NCBI GenBank assembly: GCA_000827205.1
Contig: KN832565.1
Location: 561,656-625,655 of the forward strand
Source: Plicaturopsis crispa FD-325 SS-3
Taxonomy: Eukaryota; Basidiomycota; Agaricomycetes; Amylocorticiales; Amylocorticiaceae
Direction: 5' to 3'
Length of the DNA: 64,000 nucleotides
Position numbers and translations under genes: made by a program. Shown piece by piece: positions 32,952-62,468 of the stretch (position 1 is its first letter; each line of letters opens with the position of its first letter). The notes beneath the pieces are model-generated. The model did no database searches and was not told where the DNA came from. It saw nothing but the letters and a program-made list of their open reading frames with translations.

Positions 32952-34039
32952 CTACAAGTTGAGCGAAGCCTTCACATCCTTCCACACATGGCCTGGCCAC
33001 AACTTATTCGAGCTATCGCCCGCCTCCGGTCCCTCCTTGTTCTCCTTCGGCACCCACGCGGTGCTCACTATACCCTGCTCAATAGCAAGCTGCATACCCG
33101 TCCGGAACTCTGCGAGCGGAACATCATCCGGGATGGCGTCGACGTGCACGACGGGGTATTTCCCTTCGTAGAGCTTGGAAACTTCGAGAATGGTTGTGCG
33201 TGCGCCTTGGATGCGGAACGTCGCGTTGGCGAGCTGGGAGGCGGGCAGATGCGTCACCGTGTACGCGACGAAGCCTTTGTACATATCAGGCACGTCGTAT
33301 GTCAGAAATTTGACATGTGCGGGACTGGAAAGTGGCGCACCTCCGATGTCTGACATTGATGTGGCGGTGAAGGGCGTCTGGCCCTTACCGACGAGGTTAA
33401 ATTTCCCCGTCTCCTCCAAGGCGACGACCCAAGGCAGCAACTCGGAGAACGTGCCAATCTAGATCGCAGGCCAATGTCAGCGAGCCGTGGAGAATGCCTG
33501 TATATCATGCTCACATAATATCGCGCGAATGGCAAGCCGATAGATTTCACATACTCTACAATCAGTCGCGTCAGACTTTGCGTCGTCTCATATGACAATG
33601 ACTTACCCAAGACCTCGTCTTTGGGACGGACGTACTCCAGAGTCTGCCCCTCTATCGGCATGCCGAACTCCGAGGGCACAAACAACGCAACGCCCGCCTC
33701 CTTGGCCGCCAGGGCGAGGTCCCTCTGCCACACAACTCCTGCTGCCCCAACAACCGAAACGACAACCTCGACCTTGTGCTCACGGAGGATCCGGGTAAGC
33801 TCTGTGCTGTTGGCGTAGTCGGCTGTGACCGACTTGACACCGGCGGGCAGGGTGTGGGCTGTGCCGCCTGCACGCAGGACGATGAGGACAGATGCGTCTT
33901 TCTCAGCCGCGAGTGCCTACGAGACGGTATTTTTCGCCGATGAGCCATTTCATGCATTTGAGTGCAACCTGCTTACCTGGATAACGTGGGTGCCAAGGGC
34001 TCCGGCACCAAAGACAGCGATGGATTTGTAGGTCGACAT
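32952..34039 (-). CDS. NmrA-like family protein 1 (subgroup A)
   Basis: Modelled with five exons following the plan of the other array members, about 284 residues; the internal exon ends were not individually checked. Rossmann motif FGAGALGTHVIQ at the N terminus, a catalytic-region motif LFVPSEFGMPIEGQ, the short exon EYVKSIGLPFARYY, then GKFNLVGKGQTPFTATSMSDIGG and FVAYTVTHLPASQLANATFRIQG. Such proteins bind NAD(P)(H); relatives include isoflavone and phenylcoumaran ether reductases and the redox sensor NmrA. The substrate is unknown. It ends GPEAGDSSNKLWPGHVWKD, a subgroup A signature shared with genes 2-4. It is separated from the main array by about 12.7 kb and diverges from the SNF2 gene. 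Confidence 0.88.
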
Positions 34040-34404
34040 TGCGGCGTACCAGACGGGTTTGTTGCGGGGAATTGCAACAGCCCATTACTGCTGGCATTAT
34101 TTCTATAGTCCAGATTTTTGTCAATGAGTCCGCTCTTACTGAGCGCGTTACTTACACATCTACTACACGCACCGAGGAATCGGAGGATGACCGCAAGGCA
34201 ATTATTGCATCGGTAGCAATGACAAGCGGACCAAAGTGAACCGGTTCAACACGAGCGGAGTTTAAAATGTGCTGGCTGCGGCTGCTGTGGCGGAAATCTC
34301 TCTGTGCGAACGCCATCTCAGTCGATTTTGTTTTGCAGATCACGCGCGGCGCAGAACGGTATTCTCTACTCGACGCGACTGACTTTTGACAGTCGGGCAC
34401 GGCC
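34040..34404. promoter_or_regulatory. Divergent promoter region, NmrA-1 and SNF2
   Basis: 365 bp between the divergent start codons. No clear TATA box or repeat recognised. Confidence 0.4.
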
Positions 34405-37400
34405 ATGTCCGCCCCAAATGTCCAGTACAATCCTCAACAACAACTTCCGCAACCGCCCATGAATCAACAACAGCGGCCCAGACAGCCTATGAACTTGGCT
34501 GGTATGCCTCGAGAGCGCATTCAGGCGATGTTTCAGGTGAGTGTAACACACGACATCTAGGTCTCCTACTGATCGCTAATGCGTGGTACAGCGCGCCAGT
34601 CAACTGAGGCAGTTGGGTCACAGTCCTGAAACGTCTCCGGAACTTGCAAATCTCACGAAACTCTTGCAAACCTGGCAGCATGATCAGATGCAGCAGCAGC
34701 AGCAACAACAACAACAGGCTCAGCACAGTGCGTCTCCTACACTACTCATATGTATCTTTTCCTCACCAGTATGTCAGGTCGACAACATTCAGAGCATCCA
34801 CCGTCAGTTCCTAATGGCCATGCCAATGGCAGTGTTCCACCATCTATAACTTCTGGCCCTGTACCCACCCCTTCTCAAAATCCGACCTCCCAAACACCAG
34901 TATCGTTTACCCCCGATCAGATCAATGCCCTACGCGCGCAAATTCACGCCTTCAAACTCATTTCGCGAGGCCTACCCGTCCCAGAGCCCGTCCAGCAGGC
35001 CATACGGGTGCCCAACGCCGCAATCCCCGACCTAGAGAAACTCCTCCAAGGCCACGATGTCAGTGCGCGCATTGTGGACAGTGCTGTCAAATCGCAACGA
35101 GGTGTTTCAGAGGCCGTCGAGAGTCTTAAAGGTGAGGACCTCGAGAACCTCCCCAAGGGACCGTTCCTTGAGGACGATGTCAACTCTGGTATATATCCGT
35201 ACAACGCGTATCGCCACCCCTTCAGTCACCTCAAGCGGCCAAACGATACCGACCCCGCGCTCTTTGCGACCAGACTCCAGCGCTTGCTCATCCCAACTAT
35301 CATGCCGGCTGGTCTGGATGCGCACCAAATCATAAACGAGCGAGACCGGTTCATCGAGGCGCGGATCCAGCAGCGTGTCCGCGAGCTCGAAGACCTTCCC
35401 TCGACTATCGGTGATGGCGGTTTTGAGGGCATCGAGACACTAAAGGAAAACGACCCGAATGTGGCGCACGGAAAGCTGCGCGCCACCATCGAGCTCAAGT
35501 CCCTGCGTGTGCTCGACAAACAGCGGGCGCTGCGCGCACTCGTCGCCGAGCGCCTCACGCACTCGTCCCTGCTCCCCCTCAACCGCGCCGATTTCCGCAG
35601 GACGCGCAAACCGACGATCAAGGATGCCCGCATGACGGAGCAGGCGGAGCGCAGGCAGCGCATGGACCGCGAGCGGCGCGCGAAGCACAAGCACGTCGAC
35701 CAGCTCAATGTCATCTGCGACCACGGCAAGGAGGTGCTCGCTGCCAACCGCCAGGCACAGGACCGCGCGCTCAAGCTCGGCCGTGCGGTGCTGTCGTTCC
35801 ACGCGCACACGGAGAAGGAGGAGCAGAAGCGCATTGAGCGTATCGCGAAGGAGCGTATGAAGGCGCTGAAGGCGGACGATGAGGAGGCGTACCTTCAGCT
35901 TCTTGATAGTGCGAAGGATACCCGTATCACGCATTTGCTGCGGCAGACGGACTCGTATCTCGACTCTCTTGCGCAGGCTGTGGTGGCTCAGCAGAACGAG
36001 AGCGGGCCAGCGGAGACTATGATGTTTGATATGGAGGACGGCCCCGCCAGCGAGGCTACTTTCGGTGCGAAGGTCGCCGCTGACGATGTGCAGGAAGCCA
36101 ACGGCAAGGTGGATTACTACGCCGTTGCACACAGGATATCGGAGAAGGTCACGCGGCAGCCCAGCCTGCTGGTCGGTGGAACGTTGAAGGAGTACCAGAT
36201 CAAGGGCTTGCAATGGATGGTGTCCCTTTACAACAACAGGCTCAATGGCATTCTTGCCGACGAGATGGTGCGTACACTATCATGACCATGATGTCTATTT
36301 CACGGCTCATCTTGTGCATGATTATCTCAACAGGGTCTTGGAAAAACCATTCAAACTATATCACTGATCACTTTCCTCATCGAGTCCAAGAAACAGCGCG
36401 GACCTTACCTTGTCATCGTTCCGCTCTCCACGATGACGAACTGGTCTGGCGAGTTCGCCAAATGGGCGCCTGGTGTACGAATGATGGCATACAAGGGAAA
36501 TCCGGCGCAGCGTCGCATGCTTCAAGGGGAATTGCGCAGCGGCCAGTTCCAGGTCCTACTCACGACATACGAGTATATCATCAAGGACAGACCGCACCTC
36601 AGCAAAATCAAATGGGTGCACATGATCATCGGTGAGACTAATCTCTTGTTGTGGCTTTTAAAGCGGTCGGCTGACCGCTGAGAAGATGAGGGACATCGTA
36701 TGAAAAACACGCAAAGCAAACTCTCGCAGACCCTGACGACGTACTATCATTCCCGTTTCCGGCTCATTCTCACTGGAACACCGCTCCAAAACAACCTGCC
36801 CGAACTGTGGGCGCTGCTCAACTTCGTCCTCCCAAAGATCTTCAACTCCGTCAAATCGTTCGATGAATGGTTCAACACTCCCTTCGCCAATTCGGGAACC
36901 AGCGACAAGATCGAGCTGAACGAAGAAGAGGCGCTGCTCATCATTCGTCGTCTTCATAAGGTGCTTCGGCCGTTCTTGCTGCGTCGACTCAAGAAGGACG
37001 TCGAGAGCGAGCTGCCGGACAAGGTGGAGAAGGTCATCAAGATCAGGATGAGCGCGCTGCAGAGTCAGCTGTACAAGCAGATGAAGAAACACAAGATGAT
37101 TGCAGATGGAAAGGATGTCAAGGGGTGAGTCCATTCGCATTCCTTGTGTATTTTTTTGTATCCGCTGACTTCGGTTGCACAGGAAAACTGGAGGAGTGAA
37201 AGGTCTGAGCAATGAGCTTATGCAGCTCCGGAAGATCTGCCAGCATCCTTTCCTCTTTGAGAGCGTCGAGGACAAGATGAACCCAAGCGGATTGATCGAC
37301 GACAAGATCATCAGAACAGCTGGGAAATTCGAGCTCCTCGCTCGTATCTTGCCTAAGTTCTTCGCCACGGGCCATAGGGTATGTGCAACATCTCTCCTCC

Positions 37401-39357
37401 AATAAACATATACTGAGTGCAGCATTTGGGTTAGGTCCTCATTTTCTTCCAAATGACGAAGGTCATGGATATCATGGAAGACTTCTTGAAGATGATGAAC
37501 TGGAAGCACTTGCGTCTCGATGGTGGCACGAAGACGGAGGAGCGCGCTGGCCACGTCACTGCATTCAACGCGAAAGACTCTGAGATCAAGGTCTTCATTC
37601 TTTCGACTAGGGCTGGTGGTCTGGGTCTGAACTTGCAGACGGCCGACACCGTCATCATGTTAGTATTTCCCTTTCTTCTGGACAAGGTCAGCGCTCACAC
37701 GTCATCTCCCTTGTAGCTTCGACAGCGACTGGAATCCTCACGCTGATCTTCAGGCGCAAGATCGTGCCCATCGTATTGGGCAGACGAAAGCTGTACGCAT
37801 TCTCCGTTTCATAACGGAGAAGAGCGTGGAAGAAGCCATGTATGCCCGCGCACGATTCAAGCTTGACATTGATGACAAGGTCATCCAAGCTGGTCGCTTC
37901 GACAACAAGTCGACCCAAGAGGAGCAGGAAGAGTTCTTGGTACGTACTACAGACGATGTCTAGCGGGCTGCCGCTAACAGGTGTTGACTTATTATAGCGG
38001 TCCATCCTCGATGCTGATCAAGAGGAAGAGAACGAAGAGGCCGGTGACATGAATGACGATGAGCTCAACGAGATGATAGCCCGAAACGAAGAGGAAGTCA
38101 GCATCTTCCGCGACATGGACATCCAGCGCGAGCGCGAGGCACAGGACGCATGGCGTGCTGCGGGTAAACGTGGCAAGCCCCTTCCAGGGTTGATGTCTTT
38201 CGAGGAGCTCCCCGAATGTTACCAGAACGACGAGCCCTTCGAGGTGGTCGAGATCGACGAGGCCACCGAGGGTCGTGGCCAAAGACGGAGGAATGTCGTC
38301 AGTTACAACGACGGGCTTAGTGATGAGGCGTGGGCTATGGTATGGCATTCCTATACATATCGGCCATCCAGAATCCTGACCGTCCCCCACGTAGGCTCTG
38401 GAAGAAGGTGAAGACATGCAGGAGCTTACCGACCGCGCCCGTGATAAGAAGGATAGGCGAATGGCAAACAAGTTGCTCAAGGACAACGATGTTTCTGGTC
38501 GTGGCACACCTGTCTCCGACACTGATGGCCGTGGCCGTAAGAGCAAGAAAGGCAAAGGAAAGATGAACGCACCAGACTTCGGCGGTACTCCTGCCAATGG
38601 CAAGCGTAAGCGTGGTGGCCAGAAGTCGATGTCTGTCACTCCATCGATCAACGACGACGATGACGAGGAGCGGGACCAGGTACTTGCAAATTTTTCTGAA
38701 TGCTTAACGAGTGAGGCTAACCAACTCTTCCATAGAAACGACGCAAAACAAAGGCTCCTGAATTACCGCCCGCGGTGCGCGAGAAAATGAAGAAAGCCTT
38801 TGCAGAGTGTTACCGCGCCGTTATTGCAGTCGAGGCTGTAAACGAGGATGGATCCACGCGCAAGCGATGCGAACTCTTCAGGGAGGTCCCCGACCGCAAG
38901 GCAAGTCTTCTCAATCTTTGTTACGCGTGCAAGGTCTGACTTTTCCCTTCAGGAGTACCCTGACTACTACCAGCTCATTCGGGAGCCGATCGCGCTTTCC
39001 CATCTTCGCAAACGCGCCACTTCCAATTATTACAAAAGTGTCAGCGCCTACCGCGATGATTGGAACCTCATGTTCAAGAACGCCTACACGTACAACCAGG
39101 AGGGCTCTTGGGTGTACAACGATGCGGAGGCATTGGAGAAAGTGTTCAATGCGACACTGGACCGTGTGACTGCCGGATCGGGCCTCCCTGGCGCGGCGCC
39201 TGCGCCTGCTGCCTCTGGGGCCGGGATGTACGACTCGGCGTTGACGCCCATGGACGAAGATGAACGGCCTGCACCGTCGAGGAGAGGCAGCGGAGGCCGC
39301 AAGCAGATCCCCGCCAGTGACGACGAGGAGTACCTGACTCCAAGTGACGAGGAGTGA
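34405..39357 (+). CDS. SNF2: SWI/SNF or RSC chromatin-remodelling ATPase (Snf2/Sth1)
   Basis: Twelve exons give 1,444 residues. Domains in order: a Gln-rich N terminus with a CAG/CAA run; a QLQ motif ([19 protein letters not shown]); a basic HSA helix ([20 protein letters not shown]); the ATPase lobe 1 with Walker [12 protein letters not shown] and box [10 protein letters not shown]; lobe 2 with [27 protein letters not shown] and [11 protein letters not shown]; a SnAC-like region; a basic stretch; and a C-terminal bromodomain ([14 protein letters not shown] ... [15 protein letters not shown]). It moves or ejects nucleosomes with ATP and reads acetyl-lysine. Whether it serves SWI/SNF or RSC cannot be decided here. 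Intron 11 (38901-38952) has a GC donor, required to keep DRKEYPDYYQ. Confidence 0.97.
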
Positions 39358-46696: not shown

Positions 46697-47790
46697 ATGT
46701 CAGTCTACAGATCCATCGCTGTATTCGGTGCCGGAACCCTTGGTACGCATGTAATCCAGGTAAGCAGGCTGGCAATGGAGCGCGTGGTTCGGATATATCG
46801 TTGAACAATGAGTTGTCCTAGGCACTGGCAACCGAGAAGGACGCTTCCGTGCTCGTCGTCCTGCGAGCAGGCGGCACGGCACGTACCCTCCCCGATGGAG
46901 TCAAGTCCGTGACCGCCGACTACGCGAACAGCGCAGAGCTCACGAAGATCCTCCGCCAGCACAAGACCGAGGTCGTCGTCTCGCTAGTCGGCTACCCAGG
47001 ATTTGGCTGGCAAAAGGACCTCGCCTTGGCGGCTAAAGAAGCAGGCGCGTCGTTGTTCGTGCCCTCGGAGTTTGGCATGCCTACGGAGGGGCAGACAGTG
47101 GAACATATTCGTCTCAAGGATGAGACTGTGGGTGAGCCATCAGTGTATGCCAAAATGCAAATCGGTTATGAGAGCTAACTTGACTATGTAGAATATCTGA
47201 AATCTATCGATTTGCCTTTCACGCGATACTATGTGAGGCTCATGCAAATAGTATGAGGCGGCTTCCCACTAATCCGTACAGACTGGAACGTTCTCGGAGT
47301 GGTTACCTTGGCTGGTCGCTTTGAAGGAGACGGGGAAATACAACATCGTAGGTAAGGGCGAGACGCCCTTCACCACTACCGCTCTGTCAGACATCGGAGG
47401 TTCGTCGCTCTTTACTCCCACATATGCTAGATCTCTGACAGACCTTCAAAACATACGTGGCTTGCAGGCTTTGTCGCGTACACGCTAACACACTTGCCAC
47501 CTGCTCAGCTCGCGAACGCGACGTTCCGCATCCAGGGCGCGCGTACGACACTGCTTGAGATTTCGAAGCTCTTCGAAGGGCAATACCCTGTCGTGCACGT
47601 CGACGCGATCCCGGGTGATATCCCCCATACAGAATTCCGGACGGGTCTGCAACGCATAATCGAGCTGGGCATGGGGAGCACCGCGTGGGTGCCAAAGGAG
47701 AATAAGGAAGGACCGGAGGCAGGCGACAGCTCGAACAAGTTGTGGCCAGGCCATGTGTGGAAGGACGTGAAGACCTCGCTCGACCTGTAG
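46697..47790 (+). CDS. NmrA-like family protein 2 (subgroup A)
   Basis: Five exons (46697-46759, 46822-47131, 47192-47232, 47282-47399, 47468-47790) give 284 residues. Rossmann motif FGAGTLGTHVIQ, SVLVVLRAGGTARTLP, VTADYANSAELTKILRQHK, LFVPSEFGMPTEGQ, the 41-bp exon EYLKSIDLPFTRYY, GKYNIVGKGETPFTTT and GFVAYTLTHLPPAQLANATFRIQG. It is expected to bind NAD(P)(H) as a reductase or redox-sensing regulator. The C terminus (GPEAGDSSNKLWPGHVWKD) places it with genes 1, 3 and 4. The promoter shares TGACGC and a TATA-like site with genes 3 and 4. Confidence 0.9.
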
Positions 47791-47937: not shown

Positions 47938-48039
47938 TTCTGGGAACCGAACGGCATATATTGGGCGACCAAGTCAATGCTTGGTGGCAGGCATCTCACA
48001 GTGCAGACGCTCGGCTGAAACACAGTTCTCTCAGTACTA

Positions 48040-49136
48040 ATGTCAACCTACAAATCCATCGCTATCTTCGGTGCCGGGACCCTCGGCAAGCACGTCATCC
48101 AGGTGAGTAGGTTTGGCGGTTGAATGCGCGATGTGGGACACCGCTGAGCGATGATTCGCGTACAGGCATTCGCGGCCGAGAAAGAGGCATCTGTTCTCGT
48201 CGTCCTGCGGGCAGGCGGTTCCGCTCGCACCCTCCCCGCCGGTGTCGAGTCTGTCACTGCTGACTACGCGAACAGTGCAGAGCTCACCAAGATCCTCCGC
48301 GAGCACAAGGTCGAGGTGGTCGTCTCGCTTGTTGGGGCACCGGGAATCTTCTGGCAGAAGGACCTTGGCTTGGCGGCCAAGGAGGCAGGTGTTTCATTGT
48401 TCGTGCCCTCGGAATTTGGCATGCCCACGGAGGGGCATACTGTAGATTTCATCCGTCCCAAAGATGAGGTTGTTGGTGAGCCATCTCTGGATGCTGCGAT
48501 GGAAAGCCGTCGCTGGAGCTGACCTCACTGCACATAGAATATCTGAAGTCTATTGGTTTGCCTTCTGCGCGATACTACGTGAGCATGCTGCAAAGTGTAA
48601 GAGGCGGCCCCCTACTGACAATCTGCATAGACTGGAGCATTCTACGAGTCATTGCCCTGGCTCGTTGCCTTGAAGGAGACAGGGAAATTTAACATCATCG
48701 GGAAGGGCGAGACGCCCTTCACCACTACTTCTGTATCAGACATCGGAGGTGTGTCTATATCTACTTTCACATGTGCTAAATACTGACACGCGGTCAAAAC
48801 ACACCCGCAGGCTTTGTAGCTTACACGCTGACGCATCTGCCCCCGTCTCAGCTCGCGAGCGCGACGTTCCGCATCCAGGGCTCACGCACGACCTTACTTG
48901 ACATTTCCAAGTTGCTAGACGGCAAATACCCCGTCGTGCACGTCGATGCCATTTCGGAGGATGTCCTCGTTGCCGCAAACCGGACGCGTATGCAGCGCAT
49001 AATCGAACAGGGCATGGCGAGCAACGCGTGGGTGCCGAAGGAAAACAAGGAAGGACCGGAGGCGGGCGACAGCTCGAACGAGTTGTGGCCGGGCCATGTG
49101 TGGAAGGATTTGAAGGCCTCGCTCGCCGACCTGTAG
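48040..49136 (+). CDS. NmrA-like family protein 3 (subgroup A), with transposon at its stop codon
   Basis: Five exons (48040-48102, 48166-48475, 48538-48578, 48631-48748, 48811-49136) give 285 residues. Motifs as in genes 2 and 4: FGAGTLGKHVIQ, VLVVLRAGGSARTLP, LFVPSEFGMPTEGH, EYLKSIGLPSARYY, GKFNIIGKGETPFTTTSVSDIGG, LASATFRIQGSRTTL. A 347-bp miniature transposon sits directly after the last codon; its target duplication CCTGTAGC contains the TAG stop, so the protein is intact but the 3' UTR begins inside the transposon. One extra residue near the end (ASLADL) compared with gene 2. The family expectation is NAD(P)(H) binding; the substrate is unknown. Confidence 0.9.
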
Positions 49137-49137
49137 C
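49130..49137. repeat. Target site duplication (left), CCTGTAGC
   Basis: Contains the stop codon of NmrA-3 (49134-49136). Repeated exactly at 49485-49492. Confidence 0.85.
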
Positions 49138-50104: not shown

Positions 50105-51186
50105 ATGTCCACCTACAAGTCCATCGCTATCTTTGGTGCAGGAACCCTTGGCAAGCACGTCATCCAGGTAAGCAGGTTTGGCGATTGACAATGAAAGCAT
50201 GATGTGGGACACCGCTGAGCATGATTCTCGCTCAGGCATTCGCAGACGAGAAAGACGCCTCCGTCGTCGTCGTCCTCCGCGCGGGCGGCGCGGCGCGTCC
50301 CCTCCCCGACGGCGTCAAGTCGGTCACCGTCGACTACGCGAATAGCGCAGAGCTCACGAAGATCCTCCGCGAACACAAGACCGAGGTCGTCGTCTCGGTC
50401 GTTGGGGCGGCAGGAATCGTGTGGCAGAAGGAGCTCGCCGTGGCAGCCAAGGAGGCGGGCGTTTCGCTGTTCGTGCCCTCGGAGTTTGGTATGCCGACGG
50501 AAGGGCAGGAAGGGTTCGTCGCTCCTAAGAGTGATGTCGTCGGTGAGCCACTCTCTGTATGCAAGCCACGAGCAGAGCTGATCTTACGGTGATAGATTAC
50601 CTGAAGTCTATTGGTTTGCCATTTACGCGATACTATGTAAGCGCAATGCAAGATACTACCTGAGACGTCCCGCTGAGCAAGGCAATTGCTAGACTGGCTT
50701 GTTCGCCGAGTCTTTCCCATGGCACGTCGCGACGCAGGAGACGGGTAAATTCAACATCATCGGCAAGGGACAGACACCCTTCACCGCCACCTCCCTAACA
50801 GACATCGGAGGTCAGTCCTTATTATACCACAAATGCTGCACGCCCCTGATAGGTGTCGAACAGGTTTTGTCGCATACACCGTCACACACCTATCCCCATC
50901 ACAGCTTCACAACGCGACCTTCCGCATCCAGGGCGAGCGCACGACCTTGGTTGAGGCTGCGAAGCTCTTCAGCGACAAGTACCCGGTCGCGTTCGTTGAC
51001 GCCTTTCCGAGCGACGTACCGCTTGCGCAAATTCGGACGGTGTTCCAGGCACTCCTCGAGCAGGGCGCGTTGAGCACGGCGTGGGTGCCCAAGGAGAAGA
51101 AGGAAGGCCCGGATGCGGGAGACAGCGCCAACAAATTGTGGCCAGGCCACGAGTGGAAGAGTTTGAAGACGTCGCTCGGCCTGTAG
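50105..51186 (+). CDS. NmrA-like family protein 4 (subgroup A)
   Basis: Five exons (50105-50167, 50236-50542, 50596-50636, 50693-50810, 50864-51186) give 283 residues. FGAGTLGKHVIQ, SVVVVLRAGGAARPLP, VVVSVVGAAGIVWQKEL, LFVPSEFGMPTEGQ, DYLKSIGLPFTRYY, GKFNIIGKGQTPFTATSLTDIGG and GFVAYTVTHLSPSQLHNATF. It is the closest neighbour of gene 3 in promoter and coding sequence and likely arose from the same duplication. Relative to gene 3 it lacks a codon in exon 2 and one near the end. Rossmann-type NAD(P)(H) binding is expected; whether it has enzymatic activity is not known. Confidence 0.9.
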
Positions 51187-52510
51187 GCACAAGCTAGTGA
51201 GCTAGCGTCTTGACTGCCATAAACAAATTGTAACGACGTGTATTAACACCTTGAAACATGATTGTAATTGCGGATTGCTGGTGTACTTTTCTCGGTTTCA
51301 GGAAGATCGGGCCAGCAGGCAGGCGTTCTCTCATTCATACCCAGCTCGGCGACGATCTACAGCGCGCTTTCAATGACGACGGCGTGCATGAAGCAAGCCA
51401 TGCGCTACCCCCATATATCCTGCACGACTCGTCATTGTGAGCGCATCAACTTAATAACTGCTTCATGGCGCCATAAATCATTCTGCGTGTTGTGATTTTG
51501 AACAAAGGGCAGCACTCACTGGGACAGCAACTTGTGGCGTAACACGCTGTTAATAAAACTAACACAACCGTCAAAGCGCGTAGTTCAAGCACTCACGGGG
51601 CGTTCGTTTTGCTCAACACGAACAACCATCGTGTCCTCCGGGCTACATAGATAAGCCCTGAGTAAGATGGAGCGCTACGTACAGAAACATCAATATGACG
51701 AGAATCAGAGAGACGGACTTTGAGTGACGCGCCTATACTCGGAGCAAAAACGCTCCGGTCCGAGGGGGTTAATTAAGACGGGAAGGCCAAGCCCACCCAT
51801 ATGTACCGGAGTACCAAGTATACACCTTTGCTCCATCATCCGTGCGGATCACGCTTAGCCAGGCAAGTGCGCTGTAGGCTCAAACTTCATCAGCAGTTCA
51901 GTACATGGCATGAAAATGGGAGGGATCCTGGCCTCTGAAGCTATGCAGGAGGTACTGATCACGGTCCCCGGATGGAAGACTGGCGACAGCTGGTGAAACT
52001 CTGAGCAGTTGCAGGATGCGCATTGCGCACCTCCACGAAACGGTGTCATGATGGGAAAAGACCTGGTCTGGGCCCGTACGAAACACGCGTAGATGATCGG
52101 GGAGAGAGTTACCCCACAGTCGACGACAACTTGGCGGAAACACGGTGCAGAAAGTGAAGGAAAAGACAGAGACAACTCGGTCTTCCTGCTGCAAGATGAA
52201 AGCTGGAAACAAGCCAGATGGTTTGCAATGAAATTGGAATAAAAGCAAGAAAGAGATAAAAGGTCGGAATCTGGCCAAAAGTCGAGATCTAAGGGCGCCA
52301 GGGGCAACGGAGACGGACGTGACACGTGGAGAGTACCTTAAAAGGCAATTAAAATATGACGTCACCCCAGTTTTTACCAAAAACAAGACGGGGCCACTTT
52401 CTTTTGACCTTTTTCGTTCTTCCGTCTTACCATCATCATCTGCCCTGCTTTCCGCTGCAAGTCCAGCGTTCTGTCGCTCGCTCTTTTCGCTCGCGCCGTC
52501 GCTCGCAAAC
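51187..52510. other. Intergenic, phosphatase promoter at the right end
   Basis: No gene supported. The right 200 bp hold an E-box CACGTG (52323-52328) and a full CRE (52357-52364) ahead of the phosphatase gene. Confidence 0.45.
52357..52364. promoter_or_regulatory. Perfect cAMP-response element TGACGTCA
   Basis: Palindromic TGACGTCA, 147 bp before the phosphatase start codon; the full site of Atf1/CREB-type bZIP factors. Confidence 0.6.
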
Positions 52511-55500
52511 ATGGACTTTTTCTCGTCCGTGCAGACGGACGTCGATAGCAGCTCCACGCCGCAGGGCGTCGACTCTTTCGCAGAAGCCATAGCTACAAGA
52601 TTTGGCTCCGGTTCCATGCTCACAGCGAGATTGGTCGTACCGGAATTGCCCCCGCCCACATCCCAGCGTCCGCCGTCAACTCCGATGGCCAACATGTCGC
52701 TACAGCCCACGCCAAAGGTTGTTCTACAGAAACCGCCGCCAACGCAGCCGTCCTCGTCGTTCGCGTTCGCAGCGGTCACGCCGTCCGAATTGCCGTCGCT
52801 GCTGGAGGACCAGGGTGTGCTGATCCTCGACATTCGACCCCACGCTGCCTACTCCACCGCTCGCCTACCCCGCTCCCTCTCCCTGTCCGTACCCTCTACG
52901 CTCCTCAAACGGCCACTCTTCGGCCTCGACCGCCTCGCCGCCATGCTGCCCTCCGCCTCGGCGCGCAACCGCTTTTCGTCCTGGCGCACGGCCTCGCGCA
53001 TCGTCGTTTACGACGCCGACGCCTCCGCTGTCCCGGACAGTTCCAACATCAACGGCCTGCTGCGCAAATTCAAGAACGACGGCTTCGAGCCGTCACAGCT
53101 CGCCTGGCTCAAGGGCGGCTTCCAGGCCGTCTGGCGCGAGCGCCGCGACCTCGTCGTGCAGGACCCGCCCCATCCCGACACCGACGACGACGCAGAGGAC
53201 GGCGGCAGCACCGCCGACACCACCGCACTACGCACGCGACACCTACCCATGTCCGCGTTCTCCCTCACCTCGACCACGCGCAACAACAAGCCCGCCGCGC
53301 AGCCGAAGCGCGCATTCAACCCGTTTTTCGATACCATTCGCCAGAACACCGAGCTCTCGCACGGCATCACCGAGCGCATACCGCTGCGGTTGCCGGCGCG
53401 CGTACGCCGGCGCATAGCGGACCTACCCTTTCGCTGGCTTCAGGACATCGCGCGGCGGGCGGCACCCCGCGTGCAGCGCCCTGCCCGACCTTTTGACGAC
53501 GGATCGAGCGAGAGTGATGGGGACGATCCGGAGGTCGATCCTGCTGATGTGGACGAGGGGGCGGAGGCGCTTGCGATGCAGTTCTATCGCATTGAACTCG
53601 CGGAACAGCGGCGGCTACAGGGCGTGATGGAGCACCACTCGAAGGAGTCGCTCGGGGAGAAACCAGATATCGGTGACAAGCGGGGTGCGTTTCCATTCAG
53701 TATCACTGCTGGTGTCGAGAAAGGCGCCAAGAATAGGTGCGTGGGTTCGCCATATCGCTATCGAGTCAGTAACTCATTGGCTGGATGGTGCAGATATCGG
53801 CATATCTGGCCGTTTGAGCATGCTCGAGTACGATTGCATCGTGCACGGTGCGGGAATTCTTCGGACGAGGATGACTACGTGAACGCATCCTACGTCCAGC
53901 CACTTGGAACCAATAAAAGATACATTGCCACGCAAGGGCCCTTACCTGCGACATTCACGGATTTCTGGATGTACGTCTCCCACGCATCGTCATCCCATGT
54001 GCTGTCTTGCTCATGACATCTTGCGTGCTGCAGATTGTGCTGGGAACAAAATGTACACGTCGTTGTGATGCTCACGCGGGAGATTGAAGGCGCCATGGTG
54101 AAGTGCGGCACGTACTGGACCGAGGGCTCGTATGGCCCCTTGCGGCTCAAGCTCATCCACTCCACCGAGAACACCGCCCCCGAGCGCACGGAACGTGGTT
54201 TCTTCGGACCGGCGCGCCAGAGCGGGCCGCCGCCAGCAACGACGGTGAAGCGGACGTTCGAGCTCACGCACACGGGCTACCCGCAGGAGGGCGCGCGCGT
54301 CGTGACGCACCTGCAGTACCTCGACTGGCTCGACATGGACGTGCCGGAGGACCCGCGCGGCGTGCTCGGGCTGATGAAGGAGGTGGACGCCCTGCAGCGC
54401 GCGCACGGGGGCCGGGATAGCGGTAGCCCCACGCGGTCGCGGTCGACTTCGCTGGACGAGAGGACGGGCATCGTTCAGCACGCCCGGGGGGAGCACAGTC
54501 CGGTGCTGCTGCACTGCTCCGCGGGCGTTGGCCGCACTGGTGGGTTCATTGCAGTGGACGCTGTTCTAGATGCGATAAAGCGAGAGATGCTACTGAGCAC
54601 TCCCTCTCCCGAGGTAGAGACGGAGCCCGTCCGGCGGGGATTGGGCAAAGTCGTAGAAGGGCGTGTCACAGACATGGACGTGGATGGCGCGAGTACTTCT
54701 ATAGAACGGGGGCCGACAATGCCCCTCACGGTGTCAGCGGGCGACCGCTCGGGGCCTCATGTGCACAGGAGCGCTGCCGACGACACACTCGTCGTGCATG
54801 TACCCGTAGGCGGCTGGAACTTACGAGACGCGGCTGCGGCTAATATGTCCATGGACGTCGACGAGGAGAGCGCACGCCCGTCTACGCGCATGTGGGCAGA
54901 GACGGTGCAGGACGAGACGAAGGCGCGGTCTATACCGTCGCCCAAGTCCATGCCCTCGCTCAAATCTGTGGCCTCGCCTGGCCACTCCTCCACATCATCC
55001 ATCCTTTCGACGGCGTCGTTGGTGCGGCCCAGCTCCGGCTCTTCCTCAGACGCCCGGTCTGAGCCGGACTCCTTGGACATTGCCCATCGGGGCAGCACTG
55101 ACAGCTCCGGCGCCACCTCTGTTTCCACAGGCTCGACGAAACCGGTCCCGGAGACGCACGCGGACTCGTGGCCCTCTCTAGAAGCCGACACGCGACTCCG
55201 CACGTTCTCTGTGCCGTCAAAGCGCCCGGCGTTGCACGAAGAGCGCACCGCGAAGCCTGGCATTGGCTCCTCGCCCCTCGCGAGCACCTCGACGCCGTGG
55301 CTGGGGGCGGGTGCGCCCATGGCGTCGCCCTCACATTTCGCGGCGAACTCACCTGCGCCGATGGCCTCTTCGTCGCATCCGCGGCCCATGCAGGTCTCGC
55401 TTGACCGAGGCGAGTCGTCTTCTCGCGAGAGCAGCGGGCCACCGCAGAGCGAGACCGTGCCGAGCTCGAGCTCGCGCGAGGACTCCCTCGGGGCCGAGGA

Positions 55501-56071
55501 TAGCAGTCGGCCGGGTGCGCCGCATACGAATACGAGCCCACCAGCGACGATGGACGATGTGCTCGGGGGGAACCGCATAACCAACGTAGACTACAAGGAG
55601 CCGCGGCCGCTGCACGACGATGCGTCGCCCGTGCTGTTGAGCACGTTCGACGAGCCGATCTGGCAGGTGGTACAGGACATGCGGGAGCAGCGCATGAGCC
55701 TGTGCCAGAGCCTGAGGCAGTACGTTTTCGTGCACGCAGCCGTCATCGAGGGCGCGCTGCAGATCGTAGACGAGCTGCGGAAGGAGACGGGGTATCGCGG
55801 CGTCGATGTGCGGATGGGCGATGCAAAGGCGGGGTTGCCACCGGTGTTGATGCAGCACCACAGCTCGGGCTCGACGACGTCCTCAGGCAGCCCGTCGCGG
55901 ACGAAGCGCGGCGCGAGCCCGACGGAGCTGAGAAGGACAGACAAGTCGGGGGAGGTGTCGCTGTCGAAGCGGCCCAGCCTGAAGCGCAAGGTGCAGACGG
56001 CAGATGACCAGACAGCGGGGTTCCTCCCGCCTGGCTCTGGAGCCTCCAAGTCTTTCAAGACGGCGCATTGA
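52511..56071 (+). CDS. Tyrosine phosphatase with rhodanese domain, Pyp/Ptp2-like, split catalytic domain
   Basis: Three exons (52511-53736, 53794-53970, 54034-56071) give 1,146 residues. A rhodanese-like domain lies at about 100-220 (GVLILDIRPHAAYSTARLP ... IVVYDADAS ... WLKGGFQAVW), without the usual active cysteine, as in MAP-kinase-binding phosphatases. The classical PTP domain starts near residue 400: NRYRHIWPFEHARV, DDYVNASYVQPLG, KRYIATQGPLPATFTDFW, and the P-loop HCSAGVGRTGG with Cys 629. The WPD loop reads WLD (566-568). The Q-loop (QRMSLCQSLRQYVF, Gln 1026) comes only about 400 residues after the P-loop; about 47 is usual. The likely role is dephosphorylation of stress or pheromone MAP kinases. 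The Met at 52511 is the first in frame. Confidence 0.9.
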
Positions 56072-56912
56072 TCCGCATCCCCCTTCCCCTCCCCCTCGCA
56101 TTCATCTACTCACCGCCCCTATGTTTCTTCACGCCCATAACACATATCTGGATCTGGATTCGACACCATACACTAGTCTTTTTCTGTTTCCTTCTCATTC
56201 TCAATTTTTTTGTTCTGCCTGTCCTACCATATAGCCCCCCATGTCCCCTGTGCATCCCCATCCATTCATACTACCATCGTCGTCCGCTCTGCGTCGTGTT
56301 GTCACCCGCGCTCCGGGAAATGATCTTTGGATCCTTTTCCCTTTTCTCTTTCGCATAATTATTCTGGGACTTGTAATGACCAACACCATGTATCCACTAC
56401 TACCTCTGCCATGCCGTATATATGACGCCGACTACTTTTGATGAGCGCGCACCTGCAGTCAACCTGCAGCAAGTTGAAGCGGCGCCAGATAGGGGGATGA
56501 GGTGTGTCTTGTGCTTACTTTCTGGTGAAGCGCTTACTCAAACTCCGTCGTGTTCAACGTTCAGCGCTCAATCAGCGCTGCAGCGCTAGCCAGCTTTCAA
56601 TCCATTTTCAATTAGCGAAATTATCGGGAGCGCTGACATGCCTTGTCTATCGACTACTTCTCAATATTATCACAAAGCCACCAACGTCGACACCGTGCTC
56701 GGTCAGTACTGAGCTTCGGTTGATCAGCGCTCAGCTCCGAAGATTTCGGTATAAGTCAGAGACTGAGGAGTCAGACGGGTCCTATCGATGCTGACTTCCT
56801 GCTGACTTCTATACAAGAAGTATCGGTGTACAGTGCACATGTTAACGCCAACCTCTTGCTCTCGCGAGATACCAACTGACTCGCTACGTGTATTTACAGA
56901 ACAGACTGCGAT
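56072..56912. other. Intergenic with AGCGCT cluster, upstream of NmrA-5
   Basis: The left part is C/T-rich, probably phosphatase 3' UTR. The right part holds six AGCGCT palindromes and a doubled TGCTGACTTC near 56789-56811. Confidence 0.5.
56529..56731. repeat. Cluster of six AGCGCT palindromes
   Basis: Copies start at 56529, 56563, 56574, 56582, 56629 and 56726, four of them within CAGCGCT. They lie 180-390 bp upstream of NmrA-5. Confidence 0.65.
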
Positions 56913-58007
56913 ATGACATTCAAATCTTTCGCTGTCTTTGGCGCCGGCCACATCGGTGGCCCCATCATCCAGGTAAGTTTGGCCCTCTGCACGAGATGCT
57001 CACGATAATCTGACAAGTGCGCGCATCGTAACAGGCGCTCGCCAAACTGGAGGGGATCTCCGTCCTCGTCGTCCTCCGCACGGGCGGCGCAGCCCGCACT
57101 CTGCCCAGCGGCGTCAAAACCGCCACTGTGGACTACGCAGACAAGGCCGCGCTCGTCGCGCTGTTCAAGGAGCACGCAGTCGAGGTCGTCATCTCGGCGG
57201 TCGGGTTCCCGGCGCTCGAATGGCAGAAGGACCTCGCGGCGGCGGCCAAAGAGGCGGGCGTGTCGCTGTTCGCGCCATCGGAGTTTGGGTTGCCCAGCGA
57301 GGGCTGGACGGAGAATTCCGCCCTGAAGACGAAGAGCGACGTTATCGGTCAGTTGCCTCCGAGTCGCTCACGCTAGTCCTTGCCTTACTGAGGAGAATAT
57401 CTACAGAGTACGCAAGGTCCATCGGACTGCCATATGTCCTATACTATGTGAGAACCACACCCTTCGCATATGACGACAGCCCGCTGACGTTATCACGCAC
57501 AGACTGGGATGTTCTCCGAATACCTGCCCTTCCTCTCTGCTATAGAGGAGAGCGGTAAATACTACATCGTCGGGAAAGGCGACACGCCCCTCACCTTCAC
57601 CGCAATAGCAGACATCAGCGGTACGTCGTCCTGCACTTCTCCAGAAATCTGACGCGCCTCACACGCAGCATTCACGTCTCACAGGCTTCGTCGCGTACAC
57701 CCTCACGCAGCTCCCCCTATCCCAGCTCGCGAACGCCACGCTGCGCATCGAGGGCACGCACACGACGCTGCGCGACGCCGCGGCGCTGTACGGTGGGAAG
57801 TACCCCGTTGTGCACGTCGATGCGGTGCCAGGCGACGTCCCCGCGGCGGACATCCGGACGCTTCTGCAGCAGCTCATTACCCAGGGCGCGGCGAGCGCTG
57901 CGTATGACCCGAGGACCGGGAAGGATGGCGCGGAGAAGGCGGACAGCGCGAATGGGCTGTGGGAGGGCCATGTGTGGGAGGATTTGAAGACCACGCTCAG
58001 GCTGTAG
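56913..58007 (+). CDS. NmrA-like family protein 5 (subgroup B)
   Basis: Five exons (56913-56972, 57035-57347, 57407-57447, 57503-57620, 57685-58007) give 284 residues. FGAGHIGGPIIQ, SVLVVLRTGGAARTLP, VDYADKAALVALFKEHAVEV, LFAPSEFGLPSEGW, EYARSIGLPYVLYY, KYYIVGKGDTPLTF, and GFVAYTLTQLPLSQLANATLRIEG. The end ADSANGLWEGHVWEDLK marks subgroup B. Two loop changes against the family (VPSEFG to APSEFG; RYY to LYY) may affect substrate choice. It is the first gene after the phosphatase. NAD(P)(H) binding is expected from the glycine motif; the function is unknown. Confidence 0.9.
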
Positions 58008-58500
58008 GGATGTAGAATTTGTGAGTGCGCAGTCGTGTTTCTGGACGACTGGAAATTGATTGAGCATTTTTGACGGGAAGGTGATAGTATATACGTGTCA
58101 ACTCAATTTCACGCCTGCAGCTCAAAACAATGTATTCGATTTTGACGAGCTCGCAACAAACCTAAGACCATGAAAAGGCTAGTAGCTCGATGGTCAGGTC
58201 TATAGCTGTAGATAGACATGCTTGTGAGTACCTTCAAAGTACCTTGCTTCCTTGCTTAGCGATACTCAGTCAGATTATTTGTAATGGTCTCCGAGCCTCG
58301 GAATACTTATAGTCATCAGATTTTAACGATAAGAGCTCACAGCAGAAGCATCCAAGGTGAGTAGTCGCAAGTAATCCTATGCGTATATCCCACTGGCAGT
58401 GGCAAACTTTTCCTTCTCCCAGCAGAAACTGACATTCTGACGAACGCCACTGACCTACAGTTAACTAGTTAACTGCTTACCAACGTTGTGTGCACAAAAC
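58008..58500. other. Intergenic; promoter of NmrA-6 with 18-bp palindrome
   Basis: No gene. A perfect palindrome at 58458-58475 lies 26 bp before the NmrA-6 start codon. Confidence 0.45.
58458..58475. promoter_or_regulatory. Perfect 18-bp palindrome CAGTTAACTAGTTAACTG
   Basis: Identical to its own reverse complement, no loop, 25-43 bp before the NmrA-6 ATG. It could be a dimer-binding site in the leader or core promoter. No other copy in the window. Confidence 0.5.
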
Positions 58501-59610
58501 ATGACCGTGACATTCAAATCTTTTGGCGTCTTTGGTGCCGGAAATATCGGTAGTGCGATTATACAAGCAAGTCGTCTCTACACTAGCAGGCTGCAGTTAA
58601 CCAGAACGCTGACACCTATATCTTTGGACACAGGCACTCGCTGCCCAAGATGAGATCTCCGTCCTGGTCGTCCTCCGCGCAGGCGGCAAAGCTCACACAC
58701 TGCCCAGCGGTGTCAAATCTGCTACCGTAGACTATGCAGACAACGCAGCGCTCGTCGCGTTGTTCAAAGAACACGCCGTCGAGGTCGTCATCTCTGCGGT
58801 CGGGTTTCCGGCAATCGCGTGGCAGAAGGACCTCGCTGCGGCTGCTAAAGAGGCGGGCGTTTCTTTGTTTGTGCCGTCGGAGTTTGGGATGCCCTCTGAG
58901 GGCTGGAAAGACAACGGTGTCCTCTCGGTTAAGAGCGATGTTATCGGTGAGGTTTTGGCTTACCCGACTCGGAGTGCTAGAATCATAACTGAGAAAGCTA
59001 TCCACAGATTATGTGAGGTCCATCGGACTGCCATTCACGCTCTACTATGCAAGCACAGTGACCCCCGTATACCTAGTCGGTAATTGCTAACGGTACTATG
59101 TGCAGACCGGGATGTTCGCGGAATATCTGCCCTTTTTCGGTGCCATAGAGACGGGTAAATTCTACATCGTCGGAAAAGGCGAGACGCCCCTCACGTTTAC
59201 GGCCATATCAGACATCGGAGGTACGCCTCAGTGACTCCCTTAACACTCCAACCCATCTCACACGCAGCAATCCATACTGTTTTGCAGGCTTCGTCGCGCA
59301 CACCCTCACGCACCTCGCCCCGTCCCAGTTAGCGAACGCCACGCTCCGCATCGAGGGCACGCGCACGACGCTGCTCGAAGCCGCCACGCTCTACGGCGGG
59401 AAGTACCCCGTCATGCACGTCGATGCGTTTCCCAGCGACGTCCCGTCGGCCGAGGTCAGGACATGGGGCCAGAAGCAGATCGAGCAGGGCGCAGCGAGCT
59501 CGGGGTTTGACCCGAGGATCGGGAAGGAGGGCGCGGAGAGGGCGGACAGCGCGAATGGGTTGTGGGAGGGCCATGTGTGGAAGGATTTGAAGACTGCGGT
59601 TGGGCTGTAG
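58501..59610 (+). CDS. NmrA-like family protein 6 (subgroup B)
   Basis: Five exons (58501-58566, 58634-58946, 59008-59048, 59106-59220, 59288-59610) give 285 residues. FGAGNIGSAIIQ, SVLVVLRAGGKAHTLP, VDYADNAALVALFKEHAVEV, LFVPSEFGMPSEGW, DYVRSIGLPFTLYY, GKFYIVGKGETPLTFTAISDIGG and LANATLRIEGTRTTL. It is most like gene 5. Introns 1 and 3 both have GC donors (gcaagt after 58566; gcaagc after 59048), where genes 2-5 have GT. Placing the borders elsewhere would break the frame shared by all copies. It should bind NAD(P)(H); no substrate can be named. Confidence 0.9.
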
Positions 59611-60033
59611 GATTGGTCCTGTGATTGTGAGTGTGTGAGCACGTGTAATGGCGATGTTTCAGGACAACCTCGTTAATCATTTGTCTAGGATGAGATGATT
59701 GTAGGTCCGCGTCGAATGGGCCTTACACGCTATACTAGTCGTGCAGATTACCTGGAGCAAATTGGATTGACGTTTCCTCGCTACTACGTTTCTCTTCAAG
59801 CAGGTCCAGCCAACTGTGGGCTTTCCAGCTTCGCCTCCAGACATCAGTCCATATCACATCAATATCACGACACCATGGTCCTCGGTACCGTAAAGCTTCA
59901 AAAGCTTTAACTGCCCGAGGTTCCGACAATGACTCGTCGACATGATTTTACTTGAGGGGACACATATATACAGCAGACAACTAGATCTCACGGTAACGTC
60001 CTCCTTCTCCCACCGAAACAGTGTCCGCAACAA
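59611..60033. other. Intergenic with NmrA relic
   Basis: Contains the solitary exon described at 59747-59787 and the promoter of NmrA-7 (TATA-like ACATATATAC near 59960). Confidence 0.5.
59747..59787 (+). pseudogene. Solitary NmrA exon 3 (relic of a lost array member)
   Basis: A 41-bp block preceded by GCAG and followed by GTTTCT encodes DYLEQIGLTFPRYY, clearly the third exon of an NmrA-like gene (compare EYLKEIGLPFVRYY in gene 7). Its length equals that of exon 3 in genes 2-7. About 50 bp upstream, GATGAGATGATTG resembles the end of exon 2 (GATGAGGTTGTTG in gene 3). Exons 1, 4 and 5 are not recognisable, so this is the remains of a ninth copy. Confidence 0.75.
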
Positions 60034-61175
60034 ATGGCAGCGTACAAATCGTTCGCTGTCTTTGGCGCAGGGAACGTCGGGGCATACATCATCCAGGCAA
60101 GTACACCCACCGCACTCATATGTCATTGTCACCGATAATTACCACTGAACGGCCAATCACTTACTCTGCCAGTCCCTCGCCGCCCAACCAAACGCCTCCA
60201 CCCTCGTCGTCCTCCGCGCCGGCTCCACCACCCCCCGCCCCCCACTCCCCTCCAACGTCACCTCCGCCACCGTCGACTACTCCTCCAGCACCGCGCTCAC
60301 CTCTGTCCTCCGCGCGCATGCCATCGAGGTGGTCGTCTCCGCAGTCGGCCAGGCCGGGCTCGCGTGGCAGATGGAGCTCGCGCGCGCGGCGCAGGCGGCG
60401 GGGGTGAAGCTGTTCGTGCCGTCTGAGTATGGGATGCCCAGCGAGGGGTGGACGGCGGGGCTGATTGCGGAGAAGCCTGTTGTCGTTGGTGCGTCGCGTG
60501 TGTGTCGATGGCTCGTCAGCTGAGCAGGGAGAGGTGCAGAGTATTTGAAAGAGATTGGGTTGCCGTTTGTTCGCTACTACGTGCGTATGCTGCCTGCACC
60601 CACGTTCGTCCGGAGAATGATGACCTGATGCTACTTATCGCGCAGAACGGCCTGTGGTCCGAGTTCCTGCCCTGGATCGCCGCCGTAAAAGAGACGGGGA
60701 AGTTCAATATCATCGGCAAGGGCGAGACGCCCGTGTCCTTCACCTCCCTCTCAGACGTCGGAGGTAACCCATCTCACTCACCTCCATCTCATCCCATCCC
60801 CCTTTATCGTTGTTGCGCTGTCTGACGCCCAAATCGATATACGTAGGCTTCGTCGCGCACACGCTCACGCACCTCCCGCCACCGCGTCTCGCGAACGCGA
60901 CATTCCGCATCGAGGGCGAGCGCGCGACGCTGCTCGAGGCCGCCGCGCTCTTCCGCGGGACGTACCCCGTCGCGCACGTCACCTCTCTGCCCTCCAACAT
61001 TCATGTGCACGAGGAGATCACAGAGCTGCTGAAGCTGATGGAGGCGGGCATGGCGAGCTCCGCGTGGGTGGCGAGTCTGGGACGGGAGGGGGACGAGCGG
61101 GGGGATAGCGCGAATGGGCTGTGGGAGGGGCATGTGTGGAAGGATCTGAAGACGTCTCTTGGACTCAGAGTCTGA
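60034..61175 (+). CDS. NmrA-like family protein 7 (subgroup B)
   Basis: Five exons (60034-60096, 60173-60488, 60540-60580, 60646-60763, 60847-61175) give 288 residues. FGAGNVGAYIIQ, TLVVLRAGSTTPRPPLP, VVVSAVGQAGLAWQMEL, LFVPSEYGMPSEGW (Tyr for Phe), EYLKEIGLPFVRYY, GKFNIIGKGETPVSFTSLSDVGG and FVAHTLTHLPPPRLANATFRIEG. It ends with two extra residues after the usual SLGL. Intron 1 has a GC donor (gcaagt after 60096). Exon 2 is very GC-rich in its first half with a run of Pro/Ser codons. A reductase-like or regulatory NAD(P)-binding role is inferred from the family. Confidence 0.9.
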
Positions 61176-61275
61176 ATACCTACATATGCACTACCTCCTT
61201 CGTTGTAAAATGACGCACGCAATTCGCGCAGATGTCTATCGATAAATATGGGGACACTCACGAGCGACTACAACA

Positions 61276-62468
61276 CTACACCCCAAGCACACTCCCCAAA
61301 TCCTTCCACACATGCCCCTCCCACAGCGCATTCGCGCTATCCCCCTTCTCCGCGCCCTCCCGCCCCTCCGCGGGCACCCACGCAGTGCTCACAGCGCCCT
61401 GCTCGATGAGCACTTGCAGCGCCGTGCGGGCCTCTGCGTCCCACACCGTGTGCGCGTCTGCGTCCCACACCTTCGTATTGCCTACCCCACCCACCGCCCC
61501 GGAGATCTCGTCGCCTACCCCGCCCGGGATCGCGTCGACGTGCACCACGGGATACCTCCCCCCAAAAAGCTTCGCCGCCTCGCGCAGCGTGGTGCGCGTC
61601 CCCTGGATGTGGAATGTCGCGTTGTGCAGCTGGGCGGGCGGCAGGTGTGTTAGCGTGTACGCGACGAAGCCTATAAAGTGTGTGAGGTGCGTTTTCAGTA
61701 AGTGTCGGAAGGTGAGGAAAGGCAATGGAGCAAGGGAAAGGAAAAAGACGGACCTCCGACGTCCAAGAGGGAGGTGGTGGTGAACGGCGTCTCGCCCTTC
61801 CCGACGATGTTGTACTTCCCCGTCTCCTTCGTCGCAACCGCGTATTCTAGGAACTCGGACCACAAACCGGTCTGCCCGCCTCGTCAGTCCTTACGCGCCA
61901 CCTTACACATGGATGGGGATGGCTCACATAGTACCGCGCATACGGCAACTCTATCTCCCTCAGATACTCTGCCCAACCACTAAATCAGCTCAAATCACAC
62001 TGCCAGGCCGAGCACGCGCGGCTTACCGATGACATCCCCCTTCCGCCCCACATACGCAGCCGTCTGGCCCTCGCTCGGCATCCCGAACTCGCTCGGCACG
62101 AATAGCCGCACCGTGCCCGCGTCCTTCGCCGCGCGCGCGAGCTCCTTCTGCCACTGCAGCCCGCCGTTCCCGACGAGCGAGACGACTACCTGGATGGCGT
62201 GGGTAAGGAGGAGGGAGGTGAGCGCAGCGCTGTCTGTGTAGTCGACAGTAGCGGCCTTTGCGCCGGGGGGGATTGGGCGAGGGGTGCCGCCGGTGCGGAG
62301 GACGACGAGGACGGAGGTGCCTGGGGTGGCTGTTAGGGCCTGTGGTGGATTGGAAAGAGAGGTTAGCGGTAGGACGGTGTAGGTAGGTGCTGGGGGGATG
62401 CGTACCTCGATAACGGGCGTAGCGACGTTTCCGGCACCGAATATGGCGAACGACTTGTAGCCGGACAT
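61276..62468 (-). CDS. NmrA-like family protein 8 (subgroup B, inverted)
   Basis: Five exons on the same plan, about 305 residues, on the opposite strand to genes 2-7; only the first exon end was checked. Motifs: FGAGNVATPVIE, SVLVVLRTGGTPRPIP, VDYTDSAALTSLLLTHAIQV, LFVPSEFGMPSEGQ, EYLREIELPYARYY, GKYNIVGKGETPFTTTSLLDVGG and FVAYTLTHLPPAQLHNATFHIQG. It has an insertion of about 20 residues after HVDAIPGGV, including an 8-residue tandem duplication (WDADAHTV, WDAEARTA). Its tail ADSANALWEGHVWKDL-like (GDSANALWEGHVWKD) fits subgroup B. It is convergent with gene 7; the stops are 100 bp apart. Confidence 0.88.

Follow-up and report, generated by a model that had tools for sequence, protein, structure and literature searches.

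Local duplication is a common genomic route to a wider metabolic toolkit. Eight NmrA-like genes (g1 to g8) lie close together in the window, which is the whole 64,000-nucleotide stretch of DNA analyzed here (C12:561656-625655). This arrangement raises two questions: whether the genes are copies of one gene made at this locus, and what their products might do. An earlier note on this DNA had proposed repeated local duplication, two subgroups, and perhaps a specialized reductase or redox-sensing set.

Eight complete genes with a common exon plan

Gene models were made by spliced alignment, with a manually spliced g2 as the template. Eight complete five-exon genes were obtained at window positions 32952-62468. 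All eight models run from ATG to stop, and none contains an internal stop. The intron phases are 0/1/0/1 in 8/8 genes, and exon 3 is 41 bp long in every gene. The earlier note had checked the 41-bp length of exon 3 in genes 2-7, and it is now extended to g1 and g8. Introns range from 49 to 83 bp across the eight genes, and three of them start with GC (introns 1 and 3 of g6 and intron 1 of g7). The positions and strands reported previously also proved correct, with g1 and g8 on the minus strand, g2-g7 on the plus strand, the g1 stop at 32952 and the g8 ATG at 62468.

Gene g1 (32952..34039, minus strand) has exons at 34039-33977, 33916-33607, 33555-33515, 33458-33341 and 33274-32955, with the stop codon at 32954-32952, and encodes 284 aa. 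On the plus strand, g2 (46697..47790) has exons at 46697-46759, 46822-47131, 47192-47232, 47282-47399 and 47468-47787 (284 aa), g3 (48040..49136) has exons at 48040-48102, 48166-48475, 48538-48578, 48631-48748 and 48811-49133 (285 aa), and g4 (50105..51186) has exons at 50105-50167, 50236-50542, 50596-50636, 50693-50810 and 50864-51183 (283 aa). The exons of g5 (56913..58007, plus strand) are at 56913-56972, 57035-57347, 57407-57447, 57503-57620 and 57685-58004 (284 aa). Those of g6 (58501..59610, plus strand) are at 58501-58566, 58634-58946, 59008-59048, 59106-59220 and 59288-59607 (285 aa), and those of g7 (60034..61175, plus strand) are at 60034-60096, 60173-60488, 60540-60580, 60646-60763 and 60847-61172 (288 aa).

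Gene g8 (61276..62468, minus strand) lies tail to tail with g7. Its exons are at 62468-62406, 62339-62027, 61968-61928, 61871-61754 and 61670-61279, with the stop codon at 61278-61276, and its product of 309 aa carries a loop insert. Spliced alignment first gave this gene a sixth exon by way of a doubtful 48-bp intron (61471-61518). The five-exon form was used because the reading frame is open across the 48-bp stretch and because some of the remaining surplus length can be put down to a tandem duplication of 24 bp. This duplication, identified by eye at 61423-61470 on the minus strand, encodes VWDADAHT/VWDAEART, lengthens g8 and adjoins the open 48-bp stretch.

Four proteins were scanned against PF05368 (NmrA-like, atypical SDR), and all of them exceed the curated cut-off of 27 bits. 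The values are 61.3 bits for g1 (E 1.5e-16), 64.9 bits for g4 (E 1.2e-17), 66.8 bits for g6 (E 3.2e-18) and 37.9 bits for g8 (E 2e-9 with the six-exon, 293-aa model).

Relatives elsewhere in the genome

Pairwise protein identity among the eight genes is 54-81%. The assembly searched (33.2 Mb in 49 contigs) was probed with two of the proteins. With g4, 27/27 matches at E≤0.001 fall inside the eight genes, and with g8 the same is true of 35/35 matches at E≤10; since the best candidates alone were scored (21 of 21 in each search), these results are no proof of absence elsewhere. A C-terminal motif pattern was found in the eight genes and at one other place in the genome, while the reversed control also hits one place. 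No ninth copy other than an exon-3 relic (see below) was found with the g4 and g8 genome searches, the motif pattern, or exon profiles, the last applied to the window after masking and to five loci flanking it or nearby. Pattern matches in bacterial/archaeal and viral contigs were confirmed as relatives in 0/18 and 0/8 cases, respectively.

The Pfam NmrA model has 26 matches in the genome, four of which are in exons of g3-g6. When 19 other NmrA-candidate loci were compared with the eight proteins, the nearest was L007, a 312-aa frame without introns that shares 25-29% identity (tblastn E 1.5e-9). L047 (4e-4) and L002 (0.002) come next, and the remaining 16/19 loci are at E 0.005 or worse. Another NmrA-type group is present elsewhere in the genome, comprising L003 and L005 on C6 and L006 on C5. 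The L003 and L005 matches are ∼2.5 kb apart and are possibly a second small local duplication.

By the g4 and g8 searches, in which the best candidates were scored, the copies resemble one another more closely than they resemble other genes of this genome, and they share the same exon plan. Given these searches, the 19 candidate loci and the 54-81% identities, the eight genes are, within this genome, best read as duplicates of one gene at this locus, copied as DNA with the introns included. Local duplication is well supported within this genome. The repeated local duplication proposed earlier is borne out to this extent by the common exon plan and phases in 8/8 genes, by the genome searches with two proteins and by the exon-3 relic inside the array.

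Relationships among the copies

Unrooted trees separate g1-g4 from g5-g8 with support of 100/99 for protein and 100/99 for coding DNA, and the split is retained (98/99 or 90/99) when outside genes are placed in the tree. The grouping of g5 with g6 is supported at 100/99. The proposed division into two subgroups holds as a split, but the second subgroup does not hold as a coherent group. Genes g7 and g8 share 54-62% identity with one another and with g5/g6, and 57-64% with g1-g4. Because they are thus no closer to the g5/g6 pair or to one another than to g1-g4, "subgroup 2" amounts to the pair g5/g6 and two lone copies, and the array is better described as a group of four (g1-g4), a pair and two lone copies. 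The shared strings that had been assigned to the subgroups were stated too generally, as each is exact in only one or two genes: GPEAGDSSNKLWPGHVWKD in g1 and g2, TADYANSAEL in g2 and g3, ADSANGLWEGHVWKDL in g6, and VDYAD.AAL in g5 and g6.

Three further readings of the history of the copies were considered and are not claimed. Support for a g7+g8 pair is 96/96 when all coding positions are used and 62/40 when the tree is limited to positions 1 and 2; the protein tree lacks the pair. Its appearance on all coding positions is perhaps a composition effect, as GC3 is 0.84 and 0.83 in these genes, but g5 also has a value of 0.83. Rooting the family with L007 alone as outgroup places g4 next to g5-g8 (86/96), but the L007 branch is longer than 2.5 changes per column. 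Recent gene conversion was sought by exon-wise nearest neighbors, which reveal no block of near-identity (highest 90%, for exon 1 of g3 and g4).

Nei-Gojobori dN/dS values are 0.13-0.49 in 28/28 pairs, with dS of 0.57-1.55. The pairs g5-g7, g7-g8 and g5-g8 have the highest ratios (0.40-0.49). Such values, estimated pair by pair where dS is large, do not constitute a test of positive selection. Judged by these values, the genes look like old copies under purifying selection.

A relic exon between g6 and g7

A 41-bp sequence at 59747-59787 (plus strand) begins directly after AG and is identical at 30/41 positions to exon 3 of g4 and of g7. When the masked window was searched on both strands, this was the only 41-mer outside the genes with at least 27/41 identity to any exon 3. 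It is an outlier in tblastn with g4 (E 0.014), and it matches an exon-3 profile with an E value of 0.0075, where the best match in five shuffled controls is 4.2 and that in L037 is 1.1. Its local score against g4 and against g7 is reached by 0/100 shuffles of the gap, whereas its scores against g1, g2, g3, g5, g6 and g8 are reached by 8, 3, 2, 64, 37 and 77 of 100 shuffles. No other exons of a lost copy were recognized around this sequence. We take it to be what remains of one or more lost copies, so that this locus has lost copies as well as gained them. A partial exon-3-like end is present at 59720-59737, 9 bp before the relic. With an E value of 1.1, equal to that of the L037 match, it may be a second relic or a chance match, and we do not claim it.

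Neighboring genes and upstream sequence

The earlier note placed all eight genes in one 30-kb stretch. The genes do span 32952-62468, but g1 is set apart from g2 by 12.7 kb in which Pfam identifies a Ku gene as well as coding sequence for HSA/QLQ/SNF2 domains and a bromodomain. Because of this intervening coding sequence the array is not unbroken. A phosphatase gene was correctly placed between the subgroups. Between g4 and g5, at 52232..56071 on the plus strand, there is coding sequence for rhodanese (PF00581) and protein tyrosine phosphatase (PF00102) domains, delimited as stop-to-stop frames rather than as a gene model, and it lies outside the family. HMG box and F-box domains are also found in neighboring coding sequence. 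Taken with the short introns, the SNF2, Ku, RNA-dependent RNA polymerase, HMG box and F-box sequences point to a fungal genome, probably that of a basidiomycete. Farther away, the window contains RNA-dependent RNA polymerase coding sequence at 19587-22303 (PF05183), which is likely an RNA-silencing component, and a minus-strand frame at 6739-7815 with a dihydroorotate dehydrogenase match (PF01180, E 1e-17).

A metabolic gene cluster was considered and rejected, as there is no evident partner enzyme in 30 neighboring frames, 17 of which have no Pfam match. The scan covered ten frames between g1 and g5 (three without a Pfam match), ten in the first 26 kb of the window (five without) and ten in the right flank (nine without). 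Of the 19 kb that precede the window on the left, most reads N, as do stretches of two other loci in the genome.

The 250 bp upstream of each gene was searched for shared words. The top 7-mer, GCTGACT, occurs in 5/8 genes (g2, g3, g4, g5 and g8), a count reached in 3/100 shuffles. The 8-mer CTGACTGA is upstream of 4/8 genes (1/100 shuffles), and the top 6-mer is present in 6/8 genes (13/100 shuffles). The upstream regions of g3 and g4 share 89 columns at 74% identity. A shared regulatory word was rejected, as the signal is too weak and partly reflects descent.

Nearest relatives of known structure

A profile of all eight proteins was compared with solved structures. Its best matches are leucoanthocyanidin reductase (7e-11), isoeugenol synthase (3e-9), PCBER (5e-9) and A622-like protein (isoflavone reductase-like; 8e-9), and the first eight hits also include pinoresinol reductase 1 and YtfG (2zcu, E 5e-8), a bacterial quinone reductase. 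At the bottom of the 21 hits stands NMRAL1, which belongs to the human HSCARG family (E 0.0079); the profile does not reach the NmrA regulator (1xgk, 1k6i) at E 0.01. Single proteins give varied results. With g4 alone the NmrA regulator appears at E 0.11-0.13, with g6 alone it appears at E 0.016-0.023 and NMRAL1 at E 0.13-0.15, and with g7 alone the regulator is not listed at E 1. Among solved structures, the eight proteins are nearer to reductases than to NmrA, and they do not classify as NmrA-type co-regulators.

Catalytic, cofactor and pocket residues

Correspondences with eugenol synthase were established by alignment and motif spacing, with the alignment past column 145 ambiguous by one residue. 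Three residues are invariant in 8/8 proteins: Lys120, which aligns with eugenol synthase Lys132 and with the lysine of PCBER, LAR, A622-like protein and isoeugenol synthase; Arg36, which aligns with Arg39; and Ser103, which aligns with Ser110. Position 142, Phe in g1-g6 and Trp in g7 and g8, aligns with Phe154. According to excerpts of the eugenol synthase study (PMC1991597), Lys132 is needed for activity (the Ala and Gln variants are inactive), Arg39 holds the NADPH 2'-phosphate, the nicotinamide ribose is bound by Ser110, and Phe154 forms a stack with the nicotinamide. The lining of the substrate pocket there includes Phe85 and Tyr157. The same excerpts describe a lysine of the Lys132 type in all PIP enzymes and in most SDRs. 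Because most SDRs also have this lysine, Lys120 does not single out PIP-type chemistry; it is necessary but not specific.

The glycine motif is FGAGxxG in g1-g7 and FGAGxxA in g8, rather than the GxxGxxG of PIP enzymes. Because of this GxGxxG form and the Ala that takes the place of the last Gly in g8, we treat the array proteins as PIP-like in working and not as PIP members.

The two aligned pocket positions are far from constant. Column 79, which aligns with Phe85, reads A, Y, A, A, F, F, Q, N from g1 to g8, and column 145, which aligns with Tyr157, reads L, W, S, S, Y, Y, F, F. Among 284 alignment columns, 89 are invariant and 15 have at least five residue types, columns 79 and 145 among them; the other very variable columns include 17, 83, 114-116, 118, 119, 214, 231, 234, 237 and 240. 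The chance that two given columns are both among the 15 is 0.003, a post hoc figure that becomes 0.03 with a cut of four types, while at six types neither column qualifies. Column 107, aligned with Val114, is nearly constant, and column 146, which may align with Phe158, has two types. The variability of columns 79 and 145 in the putative substrate pocket is best regarded as a post hoc lead, not a result.

Possible functions of the array

The best explanation, to which we assign a probability of roughly 0.6, is that these are locally duplicated atypical-SDR genes, with eight survivors and a decayed copy, whose products would be NADPH-dependent small-molecule reductases, perhaps diverging in substrate. 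It builds on the gene structures, the relatedness of the copies, the finding of no other close copy in this genome, the low dN/dS, the invariant aligned motifs and the relic exon. One atypical short-chain dehydrogenase/reductase gene would have been copied several times here as genomic DNA. In the order of events that we infer, the first copying gave rise to the lineages of g7, g8, the g5/g6 ancestor and the g1-g4 ancestor, and later copying took place within g5/g6 and g1-g4. Gene g1 would have ended up apart and inverted, and at least one copy would have decayed between g6 and g7. As for the cofactor and chemistry, every one of the products most likely has a Rossmann domain at its N terminus that binds NADPH. 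The invariant Lys120 would aid the transfer of hydride to a small molecule, probably one that is aromatic or electrophilic, as does the lysine in the plant isoflavone reductase/PCBER/eugenol synthase group. The copies may differ in substrate because their aligned pocket positions differ. The eight products might also act together.

The "specialized reductase" part of the earlier proposal is plausible because neither the aligned catalytic Lys nor the NADPH Arg varies, and because reductases are the closest relatives of solved structure. The redox-sensing part is unsupported, as NMRAL1 comes last in the profile search and the regulator is missing at E 0.01, although both do appear as weak matches with g6 alone. 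If the proteins were noncatalytic NADP(H)-sensing regulators of the NmrA or HSCARG type, the PF05368 matches of the four scanned proteins and the single-protein matches of g6 (to the regulator and NMRAL1/HSCARG) and g4 (to the regulator) would be accounted for. However, the eight-protein profile ranks plant reductases first, and the lysine that is essential in eugenol synthase (excerpts of PMC1991597) is kept in 8/8 proteins, though it is common to most SDRs. We therefore consider such a sensing role very unlikely.

Catalysis could also serve ends other than a substrate-specific pathway. The proteins might be general electrophile or quinone reductases that act as stress detoxifiers rather than pathway enzymes, which we regard as doubtful yet a real possibility. 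The YtfG match points in this direction. In excerpts of PMC5540887, reactive electrophiles induce Chlamydomonas IFR1 (NmrA-like/IRL) and tolerance is lower when the gene is knocked down, but the protein is described there as showing no NADPH consumption on 2-(E)-hexenal. A detoxifying role would fit within the best explanation, from which it differs in the substrate chosen. It is somewhat unlikely that the copies are redundant, with duplication raising the dosage of one reductase and the pocket differences arising by neutral drift. The low dN/dS in 28/28 pairs is consistent with redundancy, and many of the variable columns (those listed above besides 79 and 145) need not touch the substrate. 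On the other hand, dS values of 0.57-1.55 are old for pure redundancy, and columns 79 and 145 take five residue types each, in contrast to the constancy of the columns aligned with catalytic and cofactor residues. A bolder proposal, that a birth-and-death array builds a substrate repertoire from PIP-like reductases in which the catalytic core is frozen and positions 79 and 145 are re-set in each copy to suit different aromatic or electrophilic substrates, seems unlikely.

At this locus a gene family has expanded locally; the expansion is real and well defined, a relic of it can still be seen, and as gene-family biology it is ordinary. To our knowledge, few fungal NmrA-like reductases have an assigned substrate. 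Eight natural variants in one genome that agree in their aligned catalytic residues but are predicted to differ in their pockets would be convenient material for working out which compounds such enzymes reduce. NmrA-like genes appear in excerpts of wood-decay expression tables (PMC6867892, PMC7089950) and of a Moniliophthora list (PMC3948071), and the hit in PMC4495060 is a spruce transcript. No description of this array was found in the literature excerpts consulted.

Comparison with known systems

The closest known systems are the plant PIP reductases, which comprise the pinoresinol-lariciresinol, isoflavone and phenylcoumaran benzylic ether reductases, eugenol/isoeugenol synthase and LAR. 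They provide the best solved matches (top five, E 7e-11 to 8e-9), and g1-g8 keep the aligned Arg, the serine of PSE(F/Y)G, the Lys and an aromatic residue at the nicotinamide-stacking position. In contrast, the array proteins match over partial length and are shorter (283-309 aa versus 307-346 aa), have GxGxxG in place of GxxGxxG, and are fungal proteins that end in LW(P/E)GH(V/E)W. The NmrA regulator of nitrogen metabolite repression shares the Pfam family name, but is unmatched by the profile at the threshold used. HSCARG/NMRAL1, whose role is that of an NADPH sensor, is a distant sequence relative at the foot of the profile hits. As an example of genome organization, the array resembles the clustered P450 genes of Phanerochaete chrysosporium, as described in excerpts of PMC1184071: local duplication and divergence are alike in the two cases, whereas the enzyme family is different.
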